From Apium graveolens (taxonomy: Eukaryota > Streptophyta > Magnoliopsida > Apiales > Apiaceae), in contig NC_133652.1 of the NCBI RefSeq assembly GCF_009905375.1, positions 20,657,262-20,721,261 on the forward strand: a DNA stretch of 64,000 nucleotides, in the 5' to 3' direction. Made by a program: the position numbers and the translations under genes. How positions within the stretch are numbered: position 1 is the first letter of the stretch; each line of letters opens with the position of its first letter. Positions 15,926 through 59,455 of the stretch are shown here, one piece after another. Below the pieces are notes generated by a model. It searched no databases, had not been told where the DNA came from, and saw only the letters and a list, made by a program, of their open reading frames with translations.

Positions 15926-16772
15926 ATGACAAATATTACAAGCTTGTCGTTTGTTGCCTTGGACATTTCTGACGATAATTATTTATCATGGGTACAAGAT
16001 GTAAAGTTGTATTTGGGTTCAAAGAAATTAAGCGATACAATAAAGGCAGAAAATAAATCTACGGCTGAAGAAAATTTTACCTCTATAATATTTCTCTCTA
16101 ACACCACATGCATGAAGTTTTAAAATTTGAGTACTTAGAAGTCGAGGATCCCTTTATTTTATGGGAAAATCTAAAGGATAGGTTCGATCACCAGAAACTA
16201 GTTTATCTACCTGCAGCTGAAAATGATTGGGCTAATTTAAAACTTCAGGATTTTAAGAGTGTCCGAGCATATAACTTTGCTTTGTTCAAAATAAGTTCTA
16301 GGCTTATTATGTGTGGTGAGGAAGTTACGGAGAAAAGAAAAAAACGATAAAACACTATCAACTTTTCACCCCAACAATATCAACTTAGCATAGATGTACA
16401 GGGAGCACAAATTTACTAAGTTCGGGGATCTTCTATCAACTCTCCTCGTCGCTGAATAGAATCATGAATTGGTGATTAAGAATCATCAATCCCGTCCAAC
16501 AGGATATGCCCCATTACCTGAAGTAAATAATATGTCATTTCAACAGAATGTACGTGGAAAAGGGTATAGAGGTGGACGGGGCCCAGGTCGGTACCGTGGA
16601 CGAGGTCGGAGCCACAGGCATTTTCGTCCATATAACAACTCTGGTCACCGGAAGTGGCAATCTGAATCACAAAGTAAAAGAAAGGCACCATGAGCAGTAA
16701 AAGTTGAAAATATTTGCTATAGGTGCGGCATGGATGGGCACTGGACACGTAATTGTCATGCCCCAAATCAAC
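15926..16772 (+). pseudogene. Copia gag remnant with zinc knuckle
   Basis: The reading starts at the ATG at 15926, with the family-typical LSWVQDVKLYLGSKKL segment. It shifts frame near 16100-16110, then continues through FEYLEVEDPFILWENLKDRF. It is disrupted again after about 16340, where sequence matching the family is lost. An Arg/Gly-rich stretch (GRGRSHRHF) follows at about 16560-16630, with a stop at about 16691. A CCHC knuckle (CYRCGMDGHWTRNCH) begins at about 16715. Gag would package the RNA into particles; this copy cannot make an intact product. Confidence 0.85.
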
Positions 16773-17039
16773 TTGTTAAGCTATACCAACCTTCTCAAAA
16801 ATCAAAAGAGAAAATGGTAGAAAAAAATTTCGCCAACAATAACATAGATGATTTCCTGAGAATCACAACTGGAGGAATAAGCATTAATGGTCCGAATGAA
16901 CCTAACGAAACTCCCATATGGGAGGCTGAAGATCAGTTTCATATAATTACTATAGTAGTGTGTATTGTATTATTTTGTTTGAACTATGTAGTGTGTTATG
17001 TTATTATCAAATAAATTATGTTTCTTAATTATATACATA

Positions 17040-20000
17040 ATGGATTCTGAAGATATATGCATGGCTGATTGTGGTACAACTCATACGATTCTACAGAATC
17101 GAAAATATTTTACCCAAATAACCAAAACTGAAGCTCAAGTCGGAACGATTTCCGGCGTATCTAATATAATCGAAAGTTTTGGAAAAGCTAGTTTCGTCCT
17201 ACCTAATGGTACTCACATACACATTTCAAATAAATTATATTCTAGTAAGTCTACTAGAAATCTTCTCAGTTTTAAAGATATCCGACTCAATAATTTTCAC
17301 ATCGAAACTACATCTGAGACTGATAGAGAATATCTTCTTATTACTTCCACTAATCCTAGCAACAAGAAAATCTTAGAAAAATTTCACTCACTTTCCTCGG
17401 GATTATATATGATGAAAATTAGAATTATTGAGTCACATAATGTCATTGCTTCCAAACTCATAGATCCAAAATCTTTTACACTTTGGCATGAAAGATTAGG
17501 TCATCATGGCGTCTCTATGATGCGTCGTATTATAGAGAATTGTACTGGTCATCCTCTTAAAGATTTTAAAGTTCTTTCCAACAATGACCTTCCATGTTCA
17601 GCATGTTCTTTAGGAAAACTGATTACTCGACCAGTAGAATTACTTGCCCAAATAATCAAATTACGAGCTCAATTTCCAGATCATTGCATCAAGTCAATTC
17701 GTTTAGATAATGCCGACGAATTCACATCTGTAACTTTTGTCAACTATTGCATGTCTGTAGGAATCTCAGTTGAACACCCAGTTCCTCATGTACATAAACA
17801 AAATGGGTTAGCCGAGTCCTTTATCAAAAGACTCCAACTTATTGTAAGACCGCTATTGTTAAAAGAAAAATTACCTACATCTATTTGGGGTCACGCAATA
17901 CTTCATGCAGCTAATATTATTAGGATTAGACCAACTTCCTACAACCAACATTCTCCCCTACAACTGGTACTTGGTCAAGTTCCTAATATTTCTCACTTCA
18001 AATTTTTTGGATGTGGTGTATATGTACCGATTGCTTCACCACAAAGATCGAAGATGGGAGTTCAAAGAAGAATAGGTATCTACGTTGGTTTTGATTCCAC
18101 ATCTATAATTAGATATCTGGAGCCTCTAATCAGAGACTTATTTACCGCAAGATATGCAGATTGTCATTTTGACGAGTGTATGTTTCCTCCCTTAGGGGGA
18201 GATAAACATTCAAATAAAGTTAATCCTGACATAACATGGAATGCGTCAGGATTATATTTTCTAGATCCACGTACCGGTCAATGCGAACTTGAAGTTAAAA
18301 GAATTATTCATATGCAAAATATCGCAAACCAAATGCCTGACGCATTTAACGATTCTAGAAATATAACTAAATCTCATATACCTGCAGTAAATACTCCAGC
18401 TAGAATAGATATATCAATTCAAATATCAGATACAAAAGAATTGGTTATAGAATCAAAGCCACGCCTGAAGCTTGGTAGACCGGTCGATACAAAAGATGTT
18501 GCACCACGAAAAATAAAAATAAAGAAAATTGCCCCTGAAGTGGCACATGCTCCAGAAGAAGCAAACACCCCTGAAGTGGTATTATCTCCTGAAGAGATTA
18601 CAGTCTCTGAAGATACGGGATTAAACAATCATGAAATTTCAATAAATTATGTGCATGATATGAAATTATGGGATCGAAGTAAAGCCATAATTGATGATGT
18701 ATTTGTATATTCCGCATCATTGGATGTAGACATAAATTATGATCCTGAACCACAAAGTGTGGATGAATGCCGTCTAAGAAAAGACTGGCCAAAATGGAAA
18801 TACGCAATCCAAACAGAATTAAATTCACTGCGTAAAAGAGAAGTATTTGGACATGTTGTCCAAACACCAATTGGTGTGAACCCTGTTGGAAATAAATGGG
18901 TATTCATAAGAAAACGAAATGAAAAGAATGAAATTATGAGATATAAAGCCCGACTTGTAGCACATGGGTTTTCTCAAAGGTCGGGCATTGATTATCAAGA
19001 GACGTACTCGTCAGTGATGGATGGAATTACTTTTCATTTTATATTAGGTATGGCATCTAAAGAAAAATTGAAAACACGTCTTATGGGCGTCGTTACTTCA
19101 TACCTTTACGGTTCACTTAATAGTGAAATTTTTATGAAAATCCCAGAAGGATTAAAAATGGATGAATTCAAGAAATCTCGTCATATATACTCCATTAAAC
19201 TTCAACGATCATTGTATGGACTGAAACAGTCTGGTCGTATGTGGTATAACAGACTTATTCGTTATTTACAAAAGAATGGGTATATTAGTAACCAAATTTA
19301 TCCATGTGTTTTTATCAAAAAATCACAATCTTGGTTTTGTAATTATTGTTGTATATGTGGATGATTTAAACCTTGTAGGAACAGGTACAGAGGTTGATGA
19401 AGCATTGGAGCTGTCATATACCTAAAGACAGAGTTTGAAATGAAAGATCTTGGAAGGACAAAATATTGCCTTGGTATACAAGTCGAGCACTTGTCACCGA
19501 GAATTTTCCTCCACCAATTTACATATACAAAAAAGGTTTTGAACAGATTTTACATGGATAAATCTCATCCATTGAATACTCCAATGGTGGTTAGATCTTT
19601 AGAGCCTGATAAAGATCTATTTCGGCCATGAGAAGATGATGAAGAAGTTCTCGGCCCTGAAATCCCATATCTTGGAGCAATTGGTGCACTTATGTATCTT
19701 GCAAATAATACAAGGCCAGATATTGCATTTGCTGTGAATTTATTGGCTAGATTTAGCTCTGCTCCGATTGACAGACATTGGAATGGGATCAAGCATATAT
19801 TTCGTTATCTTCGTGGAACAATTGATTTTGGGTTATTCTTCCCGAAAAACTCAACATCTCAGCTTATTGGATATGCAGACGCTGGATATTTGTCATATCC
19901 TCATTTTGGCAAATCACAAACTGGACATGTGTTTACATATTGCGGTACAACCATTTCCTGGAAATCTACGAAATAAACTACAGTGACAACCTCAACAAAT

Positions 20001-30940: not shown

Positions 30941-32569
30941 TTAACCACTGAGTTTCCATGCCGAGGTAGTGATGAGTGGTCTACTATGCCAACCCAACAT
31001 CAAACAACCTTCATGCTCCTCCACTCTATACCCATCCCCTCCAGCAAACAAAGCCAACAACATGCTAGCTTGCTTAAACGCATTAGACCCCAGATGGACC
31101 GGTTCAAACCCGGCCAAATTAAAGCGATCCCTCCAGTGAGTCAATGACTCATGTCTTTCAATTCGATCAACTCCTTCACATGCCACCAAATTACAGATCT
31201 GTTTACCCAAAAACACCTCCGACATCACCTTATCTTGAGGACTCACGGCTGCAGCACCATCAACCCCACCCCCACAACTCTCCAATGAATCAAAAAGTGT
31301 AGAATAATAATGTAATGATTCAGTAAATCGGTCCAAGAAAACTGGTCCATTATGATTTGCTTCTTGTTCCCCAACCGTTACAATCTCCGGTTTCATTTGT
31401 GCTACAACAGACATCACCTTCTCAATTGCGCCGGGCCTAGCCAAAAGTTGATGCAACTCAAACATCGAATTAACCGCCACAGTCTCACCTTCCCTTAGAT
31501 CAAGCATATTAGCATTAAGATCCGCCAAACTATTAGCCACAAACCCCCTATACTCAAACTTAACATGAATCGTTTCCGCAAACTGAGCCAATTTCCACCC
31601 CACTTCTTGCAAATGATCTGTATTATCATTCGAAGGAGGCCCAATTCCAGTCAATCTAAAAGTCGGCGGTCCACCAGCCCTTAAAGCCAAAGCTTGCATC
31701 AAAGCAGGCCACTGCATACCCTCTTTCATACTAAAATCAATAACATGAACCATCTTCTTACCCGCAAACGCCTCAAGTATAGCCTGATTAGCCGTAAAAT
31801 GAGCAAACTTCAAATACGGACAAGTCTCATAAAAATGCATCTCAAGCATCTCATTAAAACCCAAATCCTTCCGACTCTGAGGATACAATCTATATATCTT
31901 TCTAGCCAACGCCTCAGCAAAATAAGTAGCCACTTTCTTCATAGCCCCAATCTGCGAAACAGCCAACACACCAACCTGTTTCACAAGCACCTCCGCTAAC
32001 TTAAAATTACTCTCTTGCACAGCCTCCGCACACGCCATCAAACTATGCACTAATCTAACCCCATTCTCTTGTGAATCAACCAAAACCTGAACCGACTGAG
32101 TCTGACTCAGACTCGGACTCTGACTCACCGGAACATCCCAACTCGATGTACAACTCTCTGTTTTCAATCTTTTATTATTCGACAAAACAGCGTTCCCTGG
32201 TATGGCCTTAAGATCATAATTATCCGAATCATCGAAAACAATCTTACTCGAGGACTGAGCAAACATATCATCAGATTGTATTGGATTAAACTCATCAATC
32301 ATAGAATTAAGCCAAGAATTCAAATCAGAAGGATTGTAATGAACTGTTTCAGACCCGAGTTGCGAAACCTCTTGTTGTCCCATAGCTTGTTCAAGATGCT
32401 GTAGCTTCTCAGCAACATCAGCCATATCAGATGATTTAACTTTGTACCCAAGAACTGCTAACAACTCATCGTCTTGTTCAGCTTCGTTCCATTTCATTTT
32501 TGATTTTCCGGTGGAGTACATGTCGCCGGTGATGGAAGAACTGCCGCCGGCGCTATGGTCTCGTTTCAT
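30941..32569 (-). CDS. GAI: DELLA protein (GRAS family gibberellin repressor)
   Basis: One uninterrupted exon encodes 542 residues, matching the GAI/RGA size range and the intronless state usual for DELLAs. The DELLA motif is at residues 34-38 ([13 protein letters not shown]) and TVHYNP at 75-80; both are needed in the family for GID1-gibberellin binding and regulated degradation. A Ser/Thr-rich linker follows, with a basic NNKRLK patch near 131-136. The GRAS domain starts at about 171 ([14 protein letters not shown]) with the first leucine-heptad region. VHVID is at 274-278, followed by the second heptad region and a PFYRE-type segment ([14 protein letters not shown]). The SAW region ends the protein ([12 protein letters not shown] to TTSAWKLSG). 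It acts in the nucleus with transcription factors. No lesion is seen. The paralogue symbol is approximate. Confidence 0.97.
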
Positions 32570-32627
32570 TTTGGTTGTGTTTAATATTTCTCTCTGGAAG
32601 TTTTTGTGGGTGGTGTGGTGTGTAGAC

Positions 32628-32666
32628 TTAGAAGAGGAATGATAATTGGGTGAAGAATCTGGGCAT
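32628..32666 (-). CDS. 12-codon uORF in the DELLA leader
   Basis: On the minus strand an ATG at 32666 opens [12 protein letters not shown] and stops at 32628-32630, 58 bp before the main ATG at 32569. It may lower translation of the main frame; nothing shows that it is conserved. Confidence 0.4.
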
Positions 32667-32670
32667 TTGA

Positions 32671-32766
32671 GAGAGAGAGAGAGATTGGATGAGAGAGAGA
32701 GAGAGAGGGGATGAGAGGGGGAGAGAGGGATTGCTTGTGTACTCTCTCTCTTGAAAATTTATATAT
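32671..32766 (-). promoter_or_regulatory. DELLA TATA box and GA/CT-rich leader
   Basis: A TATATAA-type box lies at about 32760-32766 on the minus strand. Downstream of it in the leader (32671-32750) is an interrupted GA/CT microsatellite that is pyrimidine-rich in the mRNA sense. The spacing gives a leader of roughly 160 bp. Confidence 0.6.
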
Positions 32767-44070: not shown

Positions 44071-45645
44071 GACAAATCTTGCAAATTAAGATTTTTTTTC
44101 ACCGTGTCAAACCATTCCGTGGCTGGCATAGTAAAATCAAAAGGTGAGATCTTTCTACTTTTTTTAAAAAAAAAATCCATCTTAATGTCAATTAAGTATC
44201 TACTAGATACTCGAACTAGTACAAAATGATGTGAACTAAAATAACGACGTTCCAATACCTAGTATTTTTATGCTGAAAATTCAGCTTTACAATAAAAAAG
44301 AGATTTTTTAAAGCAGGAGCTGTAAAGTTTTGGTTGTCTCAAATCTGATTCACCTTGTGCATCAAAGTGCCTATTGCCGACTTTCAAGTGCACCACTTTC
44401 TGACATTCTTATTGTTGAATCTCTACAGCTTTGTAGAGCCAAGACACTGTCAACAATCTAAACGATTGTGTATATGGTTTGTTGTTCTTTACTCAGCTCT
44501 GAACTTTGTGGCTTACCAAAAAGCTTATACATGTTTGTACTAAAGATATGAAGTGTATAGAATGCAGACTAATGTGTAAGCCGATAGAAGGGTCTTCTCT
44601 GTTTCTATGAAAGAAGAAATCAAATGGATATTACCTTTGAAGACAAGGGTAAGATGCAGAACAATAATGCTCAAACGATAAGCAGAAATATAACTAAAGA
44701 GATCACATAGACACAAGCAAGTGTTTTGCCTCTACATCGGACTGCAAAGAGAAATCTAGACTGATACTTAAATGAAGAATAATTCTTAAAGAACAACGAC
44801 GACAATAAATAAATATATATCTATGTAGATACAACCAACAGCCTGCGATGTGAGAAGTTAGACACCTAACAATAAATAAATATCCTGAGTGTTTGTCGTC
44901 GTGTTACGAGATCCTTACAGCAACTCGACCAAACTCTCCTTATGTCGCTAACAACCTAAATCAATTCATGCAAAATCTGCATTATGCTCACCTAGATATT
45001 TATTCAGCCAACTAATTCTTAGATAAACTAACAGATGAGATAGTAAAGTTGTTTTGCTTTCTACATCCAGTCCTTACTCTTTAGTAGTCAGGTATGCGGA
45101 TTTTGACTAGACAAGATTCCCTACTAGGTGACACTCAAGTCTCAACCACTGGTTTCTTCCTCATGCTTGGACTCATATTCACGTGCTGAAGCAGAATATC
45201 CTCCCCTGCTGCAATCACGTCTAAAATACAATGGTTGTGTTATCTTGTCATTAATCTTGAATTTCCTATATACCAAGCTATTCTCATACATTGTGATAGA
45301 CAAGTTGTCACCCACACTGTTTAAAACCCTGTGTTCCCCGATTGCATTGAACATATTCAACTTAATTTCATTTTCTTTGTCAAATAATTCAAGTTGGTCT
45401 TAATATCGCACCATCCTTCAAAAGCTTGCATGATCAACTAGGAATCATTTTTACCAAGCAGCTCGAAACAATTACATTTCAAAGATTACTTGCGAAGTTG
45501 GAATTTCAAGATATTTCTTTCCCCCACCTCCAACTTAAGGAGGGGAAGGGGAAGTGCAGATGTGTAACACATAATCCGGCATCTTAAGGATTTAAATCAT
45601 CATCATAAACTTATGATATTACGTATTATATAGTTGTAATAATAC
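44071..45645. other. Region upstream of the BCCIP pseudogene
   Basis: A minus-strand open stretch at about 45390-45142 (ELFDKENEIKLNMFNAIGEH to YESKHEEETSG) has balanced composition and could be the last exon of an unknown gene cut by the LTR insertion on its right. I do not recognise it. No other coding signal is seen. Confidence 0.4.
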
Positions 45646-45650
45646 ATCGA

Positions 45651-46426
45651 TGATAACTCCGGTGAGCGGGCGGCTCCGTCCGACGGCGTTCCTGGACTTT
45701 CTGTGCGGGGGTGAGGTGTAGCTGCTGGTTGGGCGCCTGCAAAACAACACCGGAAGGGGGGTTTGGCTCCCACGGCGCCTCCGGTGTAAGAATAAGAACA
45801 GGCTTTGGAGAAGATGAAGGTATGTATACTTATGTAATTTAGAGGCTGTTGTGTGTTTGTGTGGATGTGTATATGTGGTGGCTGCTGTGTGTTTTTGAGT
45901 GTATGAGAGAGTGAGAGTGTGCAAGAGTGAATATTTTCCAAACCCTAAACCCTTCAGCCTTGGGGGTATATATAGCCCCAAGGTAGGGTTTAGGGGTAGT
46001 TACCTCTAAATCTGGGCCGTTGGATTTTGGGAGCGGAGGACGCCTGACTTGGGGGATTGCTTACACGTGTTCAGGGGAGGACCACCTTCAGAGTGTCCTA
46101 ACGGCCTCTGACACGCGTCGTGCTTGTCTGGTGTGTTGGTTGTTGATAGCTGCCAAAGTCACGTGCCCGCGTACCATTGCTTGGCGGGTTGTGGGATGTG
46201 CATGTGTTTGCTAGGAACCCCCTTCATGGTGCCTTGAGTCCTGATCCGGATCCGGGTAGGCATTAGGTCCGGGTTCCGGGTTGGATCCGGATTCGGGTCA
46301 TGGGATGGGCCTGGGTTTGGTCTCTCCATTTGATTGTACTGGGAGAGGGGGGTCTCGGTACATCGATTGAGCCCGGTATTCCATAGATCCAGGTTGATCC
46401 TTAACCGGGTCTCTTATACCCTATCA
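45651..46426 (-). repeat. LTR L1 (3' LTR of the minus element)
   Basis: 776 bp, from TGATAGGGTATAAGAG (at 46426, minus) to CCGGAGTTATCA (at 45651). It is adjacent to the polypurine tract GGGAGTGGGGGCAAA and to the left ATCGA duplication. Confidence 0.95.
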
Positions 46427-46517
46427 TTTGCCCCCACTCCCTTATGCAGATTTTCTGGATGAGGGAGTAAAGTAGGGTTGCATATTTGGCTTAGGAAAAA
46501 ACTTTCTGCTCCTGTTT

Positions 46518-46770
46518 GCCCCCCAATCCGGATCTGGTGTAATGTATACCAATCCGGATTAAGGTATAGTAGTTGCTTTAGAAAATTTCTGCTCTTTATT
46601 GCCCCCCAATCCGGATCTGGTGTAGTAGATGCCAATCCGGATTAAGGTAAGTAGACGCTTTAGAGAAATTTCTGCTCTTGATTGCCCCCCAATCCGGATC
46701 TGGTGTAGTGAATACCTATCCGGATTGATATGTTCCTGTGTAGGCTTATATGATCCGGATATGAAGCTTT
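46518..46770. repeat. 83-bp tandem repeat, about 2.6 copies
   Basis: Units start at 46518, 46601 and 46684 with GCCCCCCAATCCGGATCTGG and include a second CCGGAT word. They lie in the non-coding segment between the 3' LTR and the inserted plus-strand LTR. The CCGGAT words echo ones in the LTR itself. Confidence 0.88.
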
Positions 46771-46946: not shown

Positions 46947-47155
46947 CACGTGGCAGGGGAGTTACTCTTACCTGGGCCTATAAAAGGCTGTCTCCCCTCT
47001 TCCATTTCATTTTTTATTTTCACAAAAGAAACTCAACAGTCCTTTGTTTTTCTCTTCTCTCTCTCGCTTTTCTGCAAATCACCGTGTTTGTGGTTGATTC
47101 TTCCGCCGTGTCTCGCCGGTCTCGCCATTAATCCTCCATTAACTTGTAAGATCTT
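46947..47155 (+). promoter_or_regulatory. Promoter-like block pointing into the inverted repeat
   Basis: A G-box CACGTG (46947-46952) is followed 26 bp later by TATAAAA (46979-46985). Then come a pyrimidine-rich leader-like stretch (TTTTTCTCTTCTCTCTCTCG) and, at about 47144, ACTTGTAAGATCT, which resembles a 5' splice donor. Its orientation is plus, antisense to the host element and directed at LTR L2. It may be a captured host promoter and first exon, or an antisense promoter of the element. There is no expression evidence. Confidence 0.5.
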
Positions 47156-47932
47156 TGATAGGGTATAAGAGACCCGGGTAAGGACCAACCTGTATCTATG
47201 GAATACCGGGCTCAATCGATGTACCGAGACCCCCCTCTCCCAGTACAATCAAATAGAGAGACCAGACCCAGGCCCATCCCATGACCCGGATCCGGATCCA
47301 ACCCGGAACCCGGACCTAATGCCTACCCGGATCCGGATCAGGACTCAAGCCACCATGAGGGGGGTTCCTAGCAAACACATGCACATCCCACAACCCGCCA
47401 AGCAAGGGTACATGGGCACGTGACTTTGGCAGCTATCAACAACCAACACACCAGACAAGCACGGCGCGTGTCAGAGGCCGTTAGGACACTCTGAAGGTGG
47501 TCCTCCCCTGGACACGTGTAAGCAATCCCCCCAAGCCAGGCGTCCTCCGCTCCCAAAATCCAACGGCCCAGATTTAGAGGTAACTACCCCTAAACCCTAC
47601 CTTGGGGCTATATATACCCCCAAGGCTGAAGGGTTTAGGGGTTGGAAAATATTCACTCTTGCACACTCTCACTCTCTCATACACTCAAAAACACACAGCA
47701 GCCACCGCATATACACATCCACACAAACACATAGCAGCCTCTAAATTACATAAGTATACATACCTTCATCTTCTCCAAAGCCTGTTCTTATTCTTACACC
47801 GGAGGCGCCGTGGGAGCCAAACCCCCCTTCCGGTGTTGTTTTGCAGGCGCCCAACCAGCAGCTACACCTCACCCCCGCACAGAAGGTCCAGGAACGCCGT
47901 CGGACGGAGCCGCCCGCTCACCGGAGTTATCA
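47156..47932 (+). repeat. LTR L2 (inner, plus orientation)
   Basis: 777 bp, TGATAGGGTATAAGAG to CCGGAGTTATCA. It has G-box-like CACGTG at about 47414 and 47513, a TATATATA at 47609-47616, and a presumed start downstream near 47640. A GGCGCTAGAAGGAGGG primer-binding-like site follows, as at L3. No target duplication of its own was found. Confidence 0.95.
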
Positions 47933-48402
47933 TTTGGCGCTAGAAGGAGGGGCGCTCCATCCTTGGGACTCGGTGTCCCTGGATTCATCTTCATCAGCAA
48001 ACTCTTGAGAGAGTCCACTTTCAAACCTGTAAGAACATAAACAACCAAACCCTTTCTTGAATATGAATGTTCATTTTAGCCACGTTTGTGTGAGCTTGTT
48101 GCTTTAAGCCACGTTTGTGTGAGCCCGCTCTTGTTTGTTAAGTTTTAGCTGTTTAGGGTTTGATAATCTTGATAATCTTGAAGCCTGGGGTTTGATAGTC
48201 TTGGTGATTTTAAAACCCAGAACTGTTTTAGCTTGCATATTTTCTTTTATGTTCAAGAGCCTGCTGTTCTTGTTTGGCATTATTGTTAGCAAAACCCAAA
48301 AAGTTTGCTTGCTGTTATTTTGGAAATTTTTTGTAACATTCAAAAAAGCAACCTCAGATCCACATTTGTAGCCTCAAATCTTGGTCAGTTGTTTGTACAA
48401 TT

Positions 48403-50133
48403 GTGGTAATGGCAAGAGCAGGAAAAAGTACAGCTGGTAGGCCCTCCGCCAGTACCCACATTCAGGATCAAGACCCCTCTCAAGCCCAAAAACCTGGAGG
48501 TGATAGAGAGATCTTCCAGGAGCAACCACTGACGCAGCATACCCCGGTAAGGGATGCCAGAAATGTCATAGAGCTCAATCAGTACAAGTATACCAATGTT
48601 CGAGTTGCAGAGGAGCATATGGCCAACTTAACAAGCCACGAACTTGCTGAAGCAATCAGGCTCTACAGAGATGAACAAGCCCGGGCTCAGATGGAATTTG
48701 AACAAGATGATGAGCAAGAAGAGTCCGGGCACTCTCAACAATCCAGGAGATCTGTCTTCGACCGAATTGGGGTCAAGTCAAAGAAAAATCAAAAGGAGCC
48801 TAGCAAGAAGGACACAGAAGCAACCAGAAAGAAAAAGTTAGAAGAAATCAGAGAAAAGATAAGAAAGGAAAGAGGAAGAAAAGCTGGAGCAAAAAATTCA
48901 GAAAAGAATGCAACTGGAGGAGGAGAGGCTCCTAGCTAAAGCAAGAGGCAAAAGAACTCGGAGGGACCCTACCCCCGAACTGATTTCTGATGACGAAGAG
49001 GAGGGTCAGAAAGATCTCAAGGACATGATTTACGAGCTCCAGAGAAAAATGGAGAAAGAATCCGGGGTGGAAGTTGGGGAGACCCTCATGCCCTTCAGCC
49101 ACTCCCTAGAAGTCATCCCTCGACAGAAAAATCTCAAACACTACAACTTCGACTCTTTCGATAGATTGGGGATCCGGAAGAGCACCTCAACTACTTCGAA
49201 CAGATAGCTCAGATATACTATTACAATGACTTGACGAAATCCAGATTCTTCGCCTCGACCCTCAAATGGGGGGGCTCAAAGATGGTTCAGCAGAATCCCA
49301 TCAAGAAGCATCCACTCCTGGAAAGAATTCAGAGGAGCCTTCCTTAGAAGATTCAGAGCCAACAAAACACATGAAATGCACATGTGCCACCTGGAGACAA
49401 TCCGCCAGTATGATAGCGAAGCACTCTCAGCCTATATGTGGAGGTTCCAGGAAGCCATCAACAAAGTTTCGAATCTCGATGAAAGGGAGGCTCTAAGCAT
49501 ATTTCGAAAAAACCTGGATCCAGGACACAACGAGAGGTATATTGTGGAATTAATAAAAAAAGAGCCCCAAAGCATGGCCGCTGCTTATTCTATGGCAGCA
49601 CGGTTCATAAAAGAAACGGATGTTCTCCAAGCAATGAGAATGACTCGGAATGGAGGAAACAGGAACAAATCTTCTGATGACCGACCGAAAGGGGGTTACC
49701 ATCAGGAGAAAAAGTTCAAACAAAGCAACCAAACCCAGCAAACAAATGTTGTACAAAACACCCCAATATTCCAAAGATTGGGTCCTAAAACAGAATCCAA
49801 AAGTGATCCCGGTCCCCCTAAGCAGCAAAGGGAGCCTAGGCAAGAGCCAGAGTGGACACAACTAAACAGGACCCGGGAAGAGATACTGAAGTAGATCAAG
49901 GGAAAGCCATTCTACTATCCTCCAAAGTCAATGCAGACTCCCACAGAGAGCAGGCCTTACAACAGGCAGTGTGACTATCATGAAACCCATGGGCACAAGA
50001 CTGAAAATTGTCTCTATTTAAAATACTTCATTGAAGATCAAGCCAAGAAAGGCAACATGAATCAATACATCTCAAGGGAGAAAAATCAGAGAGAAGAAAG
50101 GCAAAGGAAAGGTAAGAATGTGGTGAATGAGGC
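48403..50133 (+). pseudogene. Gag remnant, plus arm
   Basis: Gag starts MARAGKSTAGRPSAS (ATG at 48409). It has a Gln/Glu-rich coiled region (ELAEAIRLYRDEQARAQ), the retrotransposon-gag core (HLETIRQYDSEALSAYMWRF, FRKNLDPGHNERY) and a CDYHETHGHKTENC zinc-knuckle-like motif. Damage differs from the other arm: a 1-bp gain near 48870, a 1-bp loss in a G run near 49186 and a TAG at 49892-49894. Homology to the minus arm stops at 50129, right after the GKNVVN codons. It would encode the capsid-forming protein if intact. Confidence 0.88.
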
Positions 50134-50802
50134 AGTACTGTGCCTCTCCTGGGCCTATGCACTTGAGGATTGGGGAGGAGAAGGTCCGGCAATAGAGTAT
50201 TCCCTCTTCAATGAAGAATTTTGAAGCTTTTGCCTTTAACCTTTGTGCCTTCCCTTTATCCTCCGGGAGCTCTCCCTTCTCCAAGTAATTAATGAATGGA
50301 GTCATCCAATTTGGTCTGTTGTCTATTTCCATAACTTCCTCAGACTCTGTGCTTGGTTTCTGCAATTCTTCGAAGTAGACGGAGCAATCCACGTCTGATG
50401 AATTTTGAACAAGCTTAGATAGTGTATCAGCTTCTGAATTTTCCTCTCTGCAGATTTGGATGACTTGTATATTTGGTATCAAGGCGAGGTAGCTTTGGAC
50501 CAGAGCCTGGTACTTGGCTAGAACTGGATCCTTGGCTATGTACTCGCCATTTGTTTGCTTTACGACGATCTGGGAGTCGCTGTAGATTTTGAGATTCTGG
50601 ATCCTGAGTGTTCTTGCTAGCTTCAATCCCGCAATCAAGGCCTCGTACTCTGCTTGGTTGTTTGTTGCTGAGAAGCTAAAGGAGATTGTTGTTTGGATTG
50701 TGAATCCTTCTGGGCTTTTTAGGATGAGCCCGGCTCCTGATCTTTCATTTGTTGAAGAACCATCAACTTTGAGGGCCCAAGCTTCTGTTTTTTCTAGGAC
50801 CA
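50130..50802 (-). pseudogene. RNase H spacer between the palindrome arms
   Basis: On the minus strand the gag frame continues without a stop into ALKVDGSSTNERSGAG, NQAEYEALIAGL, IYSDSQIVV and NSEADTLSKL. These carry the four acidic positions of a gypsy-type RNase H. Then SPILKCIGPGEAQYC follows, a linker normally leading to integrase, which is cut off at about 50133. Protease and RT are missing because gag joins RNase H directly. This open frame is the longest intact coding stretch of the element (50072-51550). Confidence 0.88.
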
Positions 50803-52525
50803 CATTCACCACATTCTTACCTTTCCTTTGCCTTTCTTCTCTCTGATTTTTCTCCCTTGAGATGTATTGATTCAGGTTGCCTTTCTTGACTTGATCTTCA
50901 ATGAAGTATTTTAAAGAGAGACAATTTTCAGTCTTGTGCCCATGGGTTTCATGATAGTCGCACTGCCTGTTGTAAGGCCTGCTCTCTGGGGGAGTCTGCA
51001 TTGGCTTTGGAGGATAGTAGAATGGCTTTCCCTTGATCTCCTTCAGTATCTCTTCCCGGGTCCTGTTTAGTTGTGTCCACTCTGGCTCTTGCCTAGGCTC
51101 CCTTTGCTGCCTAGGGGGACAAGGATCACTTTTGGATTCTGTTTTAGGACCCAATCTTTGGAATATTGGGGTGTTTTGTACAACATTTGTTTGCTGGGTT
51201 TGGTTGCTTTGTTTGAACTTTTTCTCCTGATGGTAACCCCCTTTCGGTCGGTCATCAGAAGATTTGTTCATGTTTCCTCCATTCCGAGTCATTCTCATTG
51301 CCTGGAGAACATCCGTTTCTTTTATGAACCGTGCTGCCATAGAATAAGCAGCGGCCAGGCTTTGGGGCTCTTTTTTTATTAATTCCACAATATACCTCTC
51401 GTTGTGTTCTGGATCCAGGTTTCTTCGAAATATGCTTAGAGCCTCCCTTTCATCGAGATTCGAAACTTTGTTGATGGCTTCCTGGAACCTCCGCATATAG
51501 GCTGAGAGTGCTTCGTTATCATACTGGCGGATTGTCTCCAGGTGGCACATGTGTATTTCATGTGTTTTATTGGCTCTGAATCTTCTAAGGAAGGCTCCTC
51601 TGAATTCTTTTCAGGAGTGGATGCTTCTTGATGAGATTCTGCTGAACCATCTTTGAGCCCCCCTTTGAGGGTCGAGGCGAAGAATCTGGATTTCGTCAAG
51701 TCATTGTAATAATATATCTGAGCTATCTGTTCGAAGTAGTTGAGGTGCTCTTCCGGATCCCCCAATCCATCGAAAGAGTCGAAGTTGTAGTGTTTGAGAT
51801 TTTTCTTCGAGGGATGGCTTCTAGGGAGTGGCTGAAGGGCGTGAGGGTCTCCCCAACTTCCACCCCGGATTCTTTCTCCATTTTTCTCTGGAGCTCGTAA
51901 ATCATGTACTTGAGATCTTTCTGACCCTCCTCTTCGTCATCAGAAATAAGTTCGGGGTAGGGTCCCTCCGAGTTCTTTTGCCTTTTGCTTTAGCTAGAAG
52001 CCTCTCCTCCTCCAGTTACATTCTTTTCTGAATTTTTTGCTCCAACTTTTCTTCCTCTTCCTTTCTTATCTTTTCTCTGATTTCTTCTAACTTTTTCTTT
52101 CTGGTTGCTTCTGTGTCCTTCTTGCTAGGCTCCTTTTGATTTTTCTTTGACTTGGCCCCAATTCGGTCGAAGACAGATCTCCTGGATTGCTGAGAGTCCC
52201 CGGACTCTTCTTGCTCATCATCTTGTTCAAATTCCATCTGAGCCCGGGCTTGTTCATCTCTGTAGAGCCTGATTGCTTCAGCAAGTTCGTGGCTTGTTAA
52301 GTTGGCCATATGCTCCTCTGCAACTGGAACATTGGTATACTTGTACTGATTGAGGTCTTTGACATTTCTGGCATCCCTTACCGGGGTATGCTGCGTCAGT
52401 GGTTGCTTCTGTAAGATTTCTCTATCTCCTCCAGGTTCTTGGGCTTGAGAGGGGTCTTGATCCTGAATGTGGGTACTGGCGGAGGGCCTACCAGCTGTAC
52501 TTTTTCCTGCTCTTGCCATTACCAC
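50803..52525 (-). pseudogene. Gag remnant, minus arm
   Basis: Same gag as the plus arm, with the ATG-rich start at 52525-52519. Its lesions differ: a TAA after KIQKRM (about 52018), and a 1-bp loss in the run near 51664. The segment from about 51550 inward is open and fused in frame to RNase H. Sequence identity with the plus arm is high by eye (a handful of amino-acid changes in the first 150 codons). Confidence 0.88.
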
Positions 52526-52995
52526 AATTGTACAAACAACTGACCAAGATTTGAGGCTACAAATGTGGATCTGAGGTTGCTTTTTTGAATGTTACAAAAA
52601 ATTTCCAGAATAACAGCAAGCAAACTTTTTGGGTTTTGCTAACAATAATAACAACCAAGAACATCAGGCTCTTGAACATAAAAGAAAATATACAAGCTAA
52701 AACAGTTCTGAGTTATAAAATCACCAAGACTATCAAACCCCAGGCTTCAAGATTATCAAGATTATCAAACCCTAAACAGCTAAAACTTAACAAACAAGAG
52801 CGAGCTCACACAAACGTGGCTTAAAGCAACAAGCTCACATAAACGTGGTTAAAATGAACATTCATATTCAAGAAAGGGTTTGGTTGTTTATGTTCTTACA
52901 GGTTTGAAAGTGGACTCTCTCAAAAGTTTACTGATGAAGATGAATCCAGGGGCACCGAGAACCAAGGATGGAGCGGCCCTCCTTCTAGCGCCAAA

Positions 52996-53769
52996 TGATA
53001 ACTCCGGTGAGCGGGCGGCTCCGTCCGACGGCGTTCCTGGACCTTCTGTGCGGGGGTGAGGTGTAGCTGCTGGTTGGGCTCCTGCAAAACAACACCGGAA
53101 GGGGGGTTTGGCTCCCACGGCGCCTCCGGTGTAACAATAAGAACAGGCTTTGGAGAAGATGAAGGTATGTATACTTATGTAATTTAGAGGCTGCTGTGTG
53201 TGTGTGGATGTGTATATGTGGTGGCTGCTGTGTGTTTTTGAGTGTATGAGAGAGTGAGAGTGTGCAAGAGTGAATATTTTCCAACCCCTAAACCCTTCAG
53301 CCTTGGGGGTATATATAGCCCAAAGTTAGGGTTTAGGGGTAGTTACCTCTAAATCTGGGCCATTAGATTTTGGGAGCGGAGGACGCCTGGCTTGGGGGGT
53401 TGCTTACACGTGTCCAGGGGAGGACCACCTTCAGAGTGTCCTAACGGCCTCTGACACGCGCCGTGCTTGTTTGATGTGTTGGTTGTTGATAGCTGCCAAA
53501 ATCACGTGCCCGCGTACCCTTGCTTGGCGGGTTGTGGGATGTGCATGTGTTTGCTAGGAACCCCCCTCATGGTGGCTTGAGTCCTGATCCGGATCCGGGT
53601 AGGCATTAGGTCCAGGTTCCGGGTTGGATCCGGATCCGGGTCATGGGATGGGTCTGGGTCTGGTCTCTCCATTTGATTGTACTGGGAGAGGGGGGTCTCG
53701 GTACATCGATTGAGCCCGGTATTCCATAGATTCAGGTTGATCCTTACCCGGGTCTCTTATACCCTATCA
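52996..53769 (-). repeat. LTR L3 (5' LTR of the minus element)
   Basis: 774 bp in minus orientation. It is followed at 53770 by the right copy of the ATCGA target duplication and preceded on its inner side by the primer-binding-like site (about 52980-52995). Confidence 0.95.
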
Positions 53770-53774
53770 ATCGA

Positions 53775-54362: not shown

Positions 54363-55843
54363 CTAGGTTTATATCCCGTGCGAGGCACAGCATTTTCTAA
54401 ACTCACATGTTATTTAACAATGTACATATTATATAAATAAAATATAAATTATGTTGTAAGATACATTTTTTTCTATTTTATATCGGACAATTAATATATA
54501 ATATTCATAAAAATTGTATTTGTTTTATATTTTGAACCCTATTGCTGAATTGTCATTGAGCACTTGAAAATATCAAATTGACCGATTGTTTTATAACTCG
54601 TGCAATGCACGAGCATGCTCTAAATTGCGCGTTTTTAATTGCAGTTGTTGGCAGTATATTCGTGTTGTTTCTAGGTGAATTGATGAAATTAACCTATTTA
54701 TATAAGTAGTTTTTGACTTTCTAGGGTGTGGTTATATCGATGCAAAACAAGTTTTTCGACATTTAATATTAAGGTGAAACAATAGAGAAATGTAGTGGTG
54801 TTTTATGCCCGAAATATGAATAAATAATTTTTTAAATACTTAATGTATTTTAATGCTAAAAATGCGATAAATGAGGTTCGTGATTGTGGATCTTGACCAG
54901 AAGTATGTGTTGTTAGACTAATGATCTCATCAACTCGAAATATATGTAATATTAATGATCCTCGAGTTTTTTCAACCATTTTTCTTATATGCGTGAAAGT
55001 TCAATATTTGTTATATATTAATACGATTAAAAGAATTATGCAATATAGCGTCTATACCTTTAAAATTTGAATATAATAATTGTTTATGTATAGTTTTAAC
55101 CATTTTATGAAAATTATACTTTTTTTATAATAGTTCACACATTGTTAGAATAAAAAATAATTTCTACTATCTGTGCTTCGATCTTCGTACACTAATATTG
55201 TGCCCGTCTAGGAAATCTTAAAATAAGTAAATTATGACTTAAAATAAATAAGTAACATATAAGTAATAAGTAGATGAATGCTTATAAGTTATCTAAGTTA
55301 TCTAAGTGTTTGGTTAAGTTTACTTATAAGTCATAATTTTTTTCACTTAAATGAAGTAAAATAAATCACTTTTACATATAATTATCTTAATTCGTAAATT
55401 TTAAGTTAGATTGACAATAAAAATAGTTATTTTAAAATCAAAGTTAAAAAAATTAAAATAAGTTGAGAAAAAATACGTCGTTGCTAACAATCAGCTTATA
55501 AGTTGTAAATATAAGTTAGGCAGACAAACACTCGTCAATAAATTATAACGGATTTATAAATAAATAAGCTGGCTTAATTAGATAGCCAAACAGGCCCATT
55601 ATTTTTATCCATAAAAATGTATTTAATTTATTCATATAGTTATAAATTATTATTATTAAATAATCAAGTAGTAATAAATATACGTAATAATTAATACATA
55701 CATATTAAGTTAGTGATAATTAATACATGCATATTAAATTAAAATAATTATTAACATATAATTATGAGGGGCAGTTCAGTAATTTTAATATAATTAAATT
55801 TTCTCATCCAACCCCCTATTTGCTCTATTATATATATAATAGA
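54363..55843 (-). mobile_element. Helitron on the minus strand, about 1.5 kb
   Basis: Read on the minus strand, the 3' end is the hairpin GCTGTGCCTCGCACGGGATATAAACCTAG, with the host T opposite 54362. The likely 5' end is TCTATTATATATATAATAGAGC after an A at 55844. A second hairpin-like word (CTCGTGCAATGCACGAG) lies at about 54597, perhaps another Helitron end inside. The interior is non-coding. The 5' border is tentative. Confidence 0.65.
55201..55600. mobile_element. hAT-like MITE M1
   Basis: The ends GTGCCCGTCTAGGAAAT and AGCCAAACAGGCCC are inverted repeats. The interior, rich in ACTTATAAGTCATAA words, matches M2 at 59039-59455 in inverted orientation. It lies within the minus-strand Helitron interval. 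Confidence 0.7.
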
Positions 55844-59038: not shown

Positions 59039-59455
59039 AGGGCTTGTTTCGGGTCCTACTAATAACTAGCTTATTAATTTATAAACCCGTAATTACTTAT
59101 CGACGAGTGTTTGTCAACCTAGCTTATTAGGCGGATTTATAACTTATAAGCTGATAAGTTAAATGTTAGTAATGACATACTTTTTCTCAACTTATTTTGA
59201 TTTTTTTATTAACTTCGGTTTTAAAATGTATGTTTTAAAACGCTAATATAAATTTAAAAATCACAAATTAAGATAAATATATTTTAAAATAATTTATTTT
59301 AGTTCATTTAATTCTTTTAAAAAAATTCAACTTATAAGTAAAATTATTCAAACACTTATGTAACTTATTAAGATTCATCTAATTATCACTTATAAGTCAC
59401 TTGTTGATTTTAAGTCATAAGTTAGTTATTTTAAAATTTCTCAAACGGACACTTA
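59039..59455. mobile_element. hAT-like MITE M2
   Basis: The ends GGGCTTGTTTCGGG and TCTCAAACGGACAC are inverted repeats. The interior matches M1 at 55201-55600 on the other strand (TTATAAGTCA, AAATTTCTCAAAC). The target duplication is unclear. Confidence 0.7.

Follow-up and report, generated by a model that had tools for sequence, protein, structure and literature searches.

A palindromic insertion with three long terminal repeats in celery, possibly the record of a single composite Retand-like cDNA

Retrotransposons with long terminal repeats (LTRs) occasionally form complexes that carry three LTRs and only one target-site duplication (TSD). In the template-switching complexes of Sabot and Schulman (2007), the outer LTRs are alike, two core sequences share an internal LTR in the same direction, and errors of reverse transcription are held to have misbuilt the complementary DNA (cDNA) before integration (PMC1950507). 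Self-integration is a second known reaction, in which an LTR end is joined to internal sequence of the same element and the products are dead-end deletion or inversion circles (PMC2644782). A third related system is Mu killer of maize, a rearranged inverted derivative of a DNA transposon for which a hairpin, 21-22-nt RNAs and heritable silencing have been demonstrated (PMC8224964). Here we describe a palindromic retrotransposon insertion in a 64,000-nucleotide stretch of the celery (Apium graveolens) genome, referred to as the window (G000:C6:20657262-20721261; the assembly searched spans 3.33 Gb). The element is an inverted, truncated variant of the known three-LTR composite insertions, with a geometry like that of Mu killer.

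The composite element sits on the minus strand. In its own sense, it runs from the 5' LTR (L3) through a leader and gag into a fragment of pol, then through an inverted gag and leader to an inverted internal LTR (L2), and finally through a 3' region to the 3' LTR (L1). The three internal junctions are designated J1 (gag to pol fragment), J2 (pol fragment to inverted gag) and J3 (L2 to 3' region). The element resembles the complexes of Sabot and Schulman in its three LTRs, its single ATCGA TSD and its similar outer LTRs, which differ at 25 of 774 positions. Unlike in those complexes, the second unit is inverted, cut within gag and joined by its LTR end, and the first unit has lost the protease-reverse transcriptase (RT)-RNase H part. 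The exact LTR end at J3 recalls autointegration products, but this molecule is integrated with a TSD and holds two copies of the front end. With Mu killer it has in common a rearranged, inverted transposon derivative whose transcript would form a hairpin. The celery locus, however, derives from an LTR retrotransposon.

We favor the reading that one integration event brought in a single composite cDNA, assembled from two near-identical copies of one source element, a Retand-like Tat retrotransposon; we put its probability at about 0.6. The palindrome was most likely present at integration, because the insertion has one TSD, its three junctions are fully matched only here among the 40 places scored per search, and its arms and LTRs separated together. 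The features of the element are as follows.

45646-45650: left TSD, ATCGA
45651-46426 (-): L1, the 3' LTR
preceding L1 in the element's sense: purine-rich tract like a polypurine tract, ending GGGGGCAAA
46427-47155 (-): remaining 3' region, 729 bp
46499-46726: array of 83-bp tandem repeats within the 3' region
46979 (+ strand): TATAAAA upstream of L2, in the 3' region
47155-47156: J3, 3' region against the exact terminus of L2, 0 shared bases
47156-47932 (+): L2, the inverted internal LTR, which opens arm 1; TATATATA at LTR position 454
47933-50129 (+): arm 1 primer-binding-site-like sequence, leader and gag
50127-50130: J2, arm-1 gag against integrase on the opposite strand, 3 shared bases (CAT)
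50130-50793 (-): 664-bp pol fragment, additional RNase H (PF13456, RVT_3) and the start of integrase
50793-50794: J1, arm-2 gag against additional RNase H, with protease-RT-RNase H absent, 0 shared bases
50794-52995 (-): arm 2 gag, leader and primer-binding-site-like sequence
50794-50802: 9 gag bases present in arm 2 and absent from arm 1
52996-53769 (-): L3, the 5' LTR; TATATATA at LTR position 453
53770-53774: right TSD, ATCGA

A BLAST comparison of the window with itself pairs 47155-50132 with 50800-53770; the two stretches are 97.1% identical and differ by 77-78 mismatches and 7 gap openings. When the exact arms, 47156-50129 (+) and 50803-53769 (-), are aligned, they show 77 mismatches (50 transitions and 27 transversions) and 9 gap columns in 7 runs. 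A match of nearly 3 kb at 97% is beyond chance. An earlier reading of the window, made from its letters alone and hereafter called the sequence-only reading, had placed an inverted repeat at these coordinates inside one insertion bounded by ATCGA, and both claims are borne out. L1 and L3, which have the same orientation, are flanked on their outer sides by ATCGA, and the 5 bp outside L2 read ATCTT. In addition to what had been claimed, the third LTR (L1) and the 729-bp 3' region belong to the same insertion. Neither arm contains a full-length gag frame on examination of its open reading frames (ORFs), and tRNA and Rfam scans gave no matches.

Such a structure might arise from a fold-back read or a mis-join of family copies during assembly, and the family is repetitive indeed, with 1536 to 2658 first-look candidates depending on the probe. 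A fold-back read, however, would give identical arms, whereas the arms here differ at 77 sites and each LTR has private changes. A mis-join would produce neither the same 5-mer on both outer flanks nor arms that are each other's closest relatives. An assembly artefact is thus disfavored and appears very improbable.

Relatives in the celery genome served as references for junctions and trees. Each genome search scored the best candidates, 40 places per probe. With the 673-bp sequence between the arms as probe (40 of 1536 candidates scored), the 39 other places match positions 1-664 at most. The last 9 bp of the spacer are therefore native gag. The sequence-only reading described these 673 bp as an RNase H spacer; the content is 664 bp of additional RNase H and integrase start followed by 9 bp of arm-2 gag. 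It had also argued from a common point at which the homology of the arms stops. Any pair of repeats has such a point, so that a sharp inner edge is uninformative as evidence; what does inform, and is visible only in comparison with intact copies, is that the gag ends of the two arms differ by 9 bp.

The junctions were aligned with seven relatives for J3 and seven for J1 and J2, with native gag taken from five of eight loci (four distinct places). At J1, gag (GGTCCTAG) is joined to the additional RNase H without shared bases. At J2, integrase meets antisense gag with the three shared bases CAT, present in 6 of 7 relatives. J3 coincides with the exact end of the LTR, which abuts the 3' region, again without shared bases. 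The sequence missing at J1 amounts to about 2.45 kb as judged by the copies on C11, C7, C8, C10 and C5:309.46 Mb, 2.3 kb by the copy at C4:298.18 Mb, and 1.9 kb by the copy at C5:316.56 Mb. The gap from integrase to the J3 site corresponds to 5.1-5.3 kb in the copies on C6, C5, C1380 and C2, and to 8.8 kb in the copy on C8.

Probes of 120 bp laid over J1, J2 and J3 match in full at the window locus only, in one of 40 scored rows each. The other 39 rows per probe match one side or the other; the one-sided rows include the window's own L3 for J3 and its own arm 1 for J1. On these 40 scored rows per probe a multicopy palindromic family is rejected, a strong though incomplete result. The tail encoded beyond J2 is absent from all ten proteins found in a search with the ORF that crosses J2; nine of them continue with the native VVL or MVL (with GGS in eight), and one ends before this point. 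No protein spans J1 among the 120 of 471 matches listed in the search with gag and additional RNase H.

A purine tract, GAGAGAAGAAAGGCAAAGGAAAGG, lies near the ends of both arms (window 50088-50129 and 50803-50844) and ends 17 nt before the arm end. The gag sequence thus stops 17 nt past the tract in arm 1 and 26 nt past it in arm 2, whose 9 extra bases are counted. The tract is one of only two 24-mers in the arm with at least 23 purines. This association, noticed post hoc, suggests a shared weak point at the gag ends, for example a plus-strand discontinuity.

The phylogenetic relations of the arms and LTRs point to a common time of origin. The closest match of arm 1 elsewhere is arm 2 (40 of 2133 candidates scored), and the two closest matches of L2 are L1 and L3 (40 of 2658). 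In a leader-gag tree of the arms and 40 other copies, the arms are sisters with support of 100/98; the stem common to them measures 0.0055, and their tips measure 0.014 and 0.015. They are also sisters in a DNA tree of 19 rows (100/99) and a protein tree of 36 rows (100/95). Four rows that repeat other places (L048, L049, L050 and L052, equal to L021, L024, L031 and L030) were excluded from the counts, as was L058, which is too short for the leader-gag tree; L027-L029 and L060/L061 are near-identical copies. The LTR tree contains 27 other rows, or 26 distinct LTRs, since L010 and L040 are one LTR counted twice. There, L1, L2 and L3 form one star-like clade (96/86).

Polarized changes private to one LTR number 11 in L1, 5 in L2 and 11 in L3. 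Pairwise-shared changes number 0 for L2 and L3, 1 for L1 and L2, and 1 for L1 and L3, with one further site unclear and one three-state. The unpolarized private counts (12, 6 and 12) show no departure from a star (p 0.30). From the sister arms and the star-like LTRs it follows that arms and LTRs separated together, when the outer LTRs began to diverge, that is, at integration. The distance between L1 and L3 is 0.033. At a rate of 1.3e-8 substitutions per site per year, this places the integration at roughly 1.3 million years ago. Gene conversion is rejected as the cause of the likeness between arms. The mismatches are evenly spread, with 4-9 per 250-bp bin, and L1, which lies outside the palindrome, is as near to L2 as L3 is (0.0245 in both cases).

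These counts also bear on a later local origin, in which L3, leader and gag of an already integrated element were duplicated in inverted orientation by replication-based template switching. Sister arms would be expected in this case, and J1 and J2 resemble repair junctions. J3, however, would fall exactly on an LTR terminus only by chance, and derived bases common to L2 and L3 would be expected, whereas none was found against 11 private to L3. With no shared change (95% upper limit 3), the history common to L2 and L3 alone could cover at most about a fifth of the age of the element. A later local duplication is thus disfavored and seems improbable.

The main rival is a nested insertion followed by a central deletion. 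A family member B would have been inserted by its own integrase, in inverted orientation, into the 3' region of a member A. The resulting long inverted repeat would then have lost its centre, for example through a cut across the stem at a similar place on both sides, leaving the 664-bp piece as filler. The exact LTR end at J3 is as expected of such an insertion, and a symmetric cut of the stem accounts for gag ends only 9 bp apart. Plant LTR elements also commonly end up nested and deleted: 20 recombinant complexes stood against 2 attributed to template switching in about 7 Mb of sequence from Triticeae (PMC1950507). On the other side, B would need to be as old as A and, with 40 other copies compared, to be its sister, which is less easily explained. 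Nor is the target site that B itself would have duplicated left in a second copy to mark a separate insertion.

Sister copies do land next to each other at another locus of the same family, which helps the nested-insertion rival. On G000:C7, at about 253538600-253565000, two independent sister copies lie tail to tail, 268 bp apart (L068, L070 and L077). The 5-mers at their flanks are crossed, with TAAGC and CCGGT around the plus element and, in its own sense, CCGGT and TAAGC around the minus element. The locus is therefore not a second palindrome but the site of two separate insertions, whose crossed TSDs are best accounted for if an inversion between them followed. It shows how unlike the single ATCGA pair two insertions look.

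Several observations weigh against a composite cDNA. Other copies are nearly as close to the arms as the arms are to each other (2.83% between arm 1 and L047 and 2.91% between arm 2 and L021, compared with 2.69% between the arms). Bases common to the arms alone number only 3 against the 40 copies (7 against 17 copies). A sibling copy of the same source, inserted into A near the same time, would yield the same trees. J1 and J2, with 0 and 3 shared bases, are ordinary junctions of the end-joining kind, which DNA repair after integration could make. Finally, literature searches for inverted, palindromic or hairpin LTR complexes found no product of this exact shape, which does not prove that none exists. 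Owing to the near-as-close copies, the few arm-only bases and the equal trees expected of a sibling insertion, we retain nested insertion as an alternative of real weight, if a clearly less probable one.

The composite-cDNA reading involves the following steps. Two near-identical copies of one source would enter one composite molecule, probably assembled in the particle or the pre-integration complex. The 3' region of one copy would receive the exact terminus of the unique 3' (U3) end of the other, forming J3. The two gag ends, 9 bp apart, would be bridged by the 664-bp piece of additional RNase H and integrase, forming J1 and J2. The molecule would then integrate through its normal outer LTRs and give the one ATCGA TSD. 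J3 is the expected product of an LTR end attacking other DNA or of a polymerase jump at a finished cDNA end, and might accordingly have been made by integrase, as in self-integration, or by RT at the cDNA end. The sequence-only reading preferred one event to two neat insertions, and the TSD, junctions and trees favor this choice. The template switching that it offered as an example is one of several mechanisms that fit; since J3 has an exact LTR end without shared bases, a join of the integrase type accounts for it equally well. Beyond this join, the locus needs two more, J1 and J2.

By its domains, the source element is a Retand-like member of the Tat lineage of Ty3/gypsy retrotransposons. 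The assignment rests on domains and literature; the RT is missing from the window copy. Pfam assigns the RNase H of the spacer to the additional type (PF13456, RVT_3), and the start of integrase is encoded there too. In the relatives PF13456 occurs together with RT, RNase H and integrase domains. An additional RNase H, or aRH, is described for the Tat lineage (PMC10508981). It follows from this description and from the domains of the relatives that the spacer RNase H is probably the Tat aRH. Between pol and the 3' LTR, both relatives compared (L075 and L076) have an antisense Transposase_28 (PF04195) above the cut-off. L075, the one relative scanned for tandem repeats, has three arrays in the same region, and the window copy retains its 83-bp array. 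Both features, the antisense Transposase_28 ORF and the tandem repeats, are reported from this interval in Retand elements (PMC11963269). The assignment is made because the additional RNase H, the antisense ORF and the repeats match the features reported for Retand. Compared with Retand elements, the window copy has lost protease-RT-RNase H, the larger part of integrase and the antisense ORF; in their place stands an inverted front end.

Among the 40 best full-length LTR rows of 2658 candidates, 3 are the window's own, 24 form 12 pairs on the same contig, and 13 are single. The 12 pairs are 9-17 kb apart and have the same orientation throughout. Three near-identical copies lie 24 kb apart on G000:C4, with 3' regions at 134063923, 134087936 and 134112081 and gag at 134072311, 134096325 and 134120472, the spacing expected if a larger block had been duplicated in tandem. 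Another deletion derivative, L006 (G000:C3:214347213-214358727), has two like LTRs; its additional RNase H is located about 3.2 kb after the LTR start, and the 1.5 kb that precede this domain contain no gag match.

The palindrome could in principle give rise to double-stranded RNA. A transcript from L3 to L1 would start and end in correctly ordered 5' and 3' LTRs and include both arms, while L2, or the TATAAAA at 46979, may drive the opposite strand. Whether begun in L3 or in L2, the RNA would fold back on itself as a hairpin with arms of roughly 3 kb, a possible substrate for Dicer-like enzymes that could release 21-24-nt RNAs matching the family. TATATATA is found at position 453 or 454 in all three LTRs, in L2 and L3 within a short palindrome. 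Perfect pairing between the arms extends to 1632 of 2954 21-mers and 1492 of 2951 24-mers. Of the leader-gag 21-mers, 75% in arm 1 and 78% in arm 2 are exact in at least one of 40 other copies. For 21- and 24-mers together the range is 72-78%, and the median per copy is 36-38% for 21-mers. Small RNAs from the locus, if made, would therefore fit the family.

The geometry, the TATA-like sequence and the match to the family would thus allow silencing, although the locus is probably an inert relic without consequential hairpin RNA, an outcome compatible with every origin considered. The age implied by about 3% LTR divergence, the lack of a full-length gag frame in either arm, and the single occurrence of each junction among the best 40 scored rows per search are in line with inertness. 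The family is also large, with no sign here that the window copy stopped its spread. The constant position of TATATATA, the TATAAAA upstream of L2 and the high sharing of 21- and 24-mers with the family point the other way. In a bolder scenario, which we consider unlikely, one retrotransposition step would mint a locus of the Mu killer type. Self-joining in the particle would produce the inverted LTR-leader-gag, integration through the normal ends would follow, and hairpin RNA would silence the family in trans; the purine tract would be an internal plus-strand start and the gag break recurrent. What probability remains falls to a local effect or to past activity.

The locus touches, without settling, the question of how silencing of a new LTR retrotransposon family starts. 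A palindrome formed during retrotransposition would supply double-stranded RNA directly, without any further duplication by the host. The composite is possibly only an inert by-product. Even so, it documents abnormal cDNA assembly in a form that can be dated, with three legible junctions and many relatives for comparison, and other plant genomes can be searched for its junction type, in which an LTR end meets family-internal sequence.

The surroundings of the insertion contain other features. Directly to its left (45366-45650), a short frame (TKQLETITFQRLLAKLEFQDISF) and a purine-rich stretch look like the end of a Copia element; the frame has no Pfam match. To the right, a second, weaker inverted repeat pairs 55212-55585 with 59056-59440 at about 77% over 400 bp, and is perhaps a small repeat pair. 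Farther to the left lie a piece of a Mutator-like transposase (1625-2374, -), a Copia element with RVT_2 (16694-19973, +), and an intact DELLA (GRAS) gene (30944-32758, -), whose next-best protein matches after its own, at 100%, are from Heracleum and carrot, at 89%.

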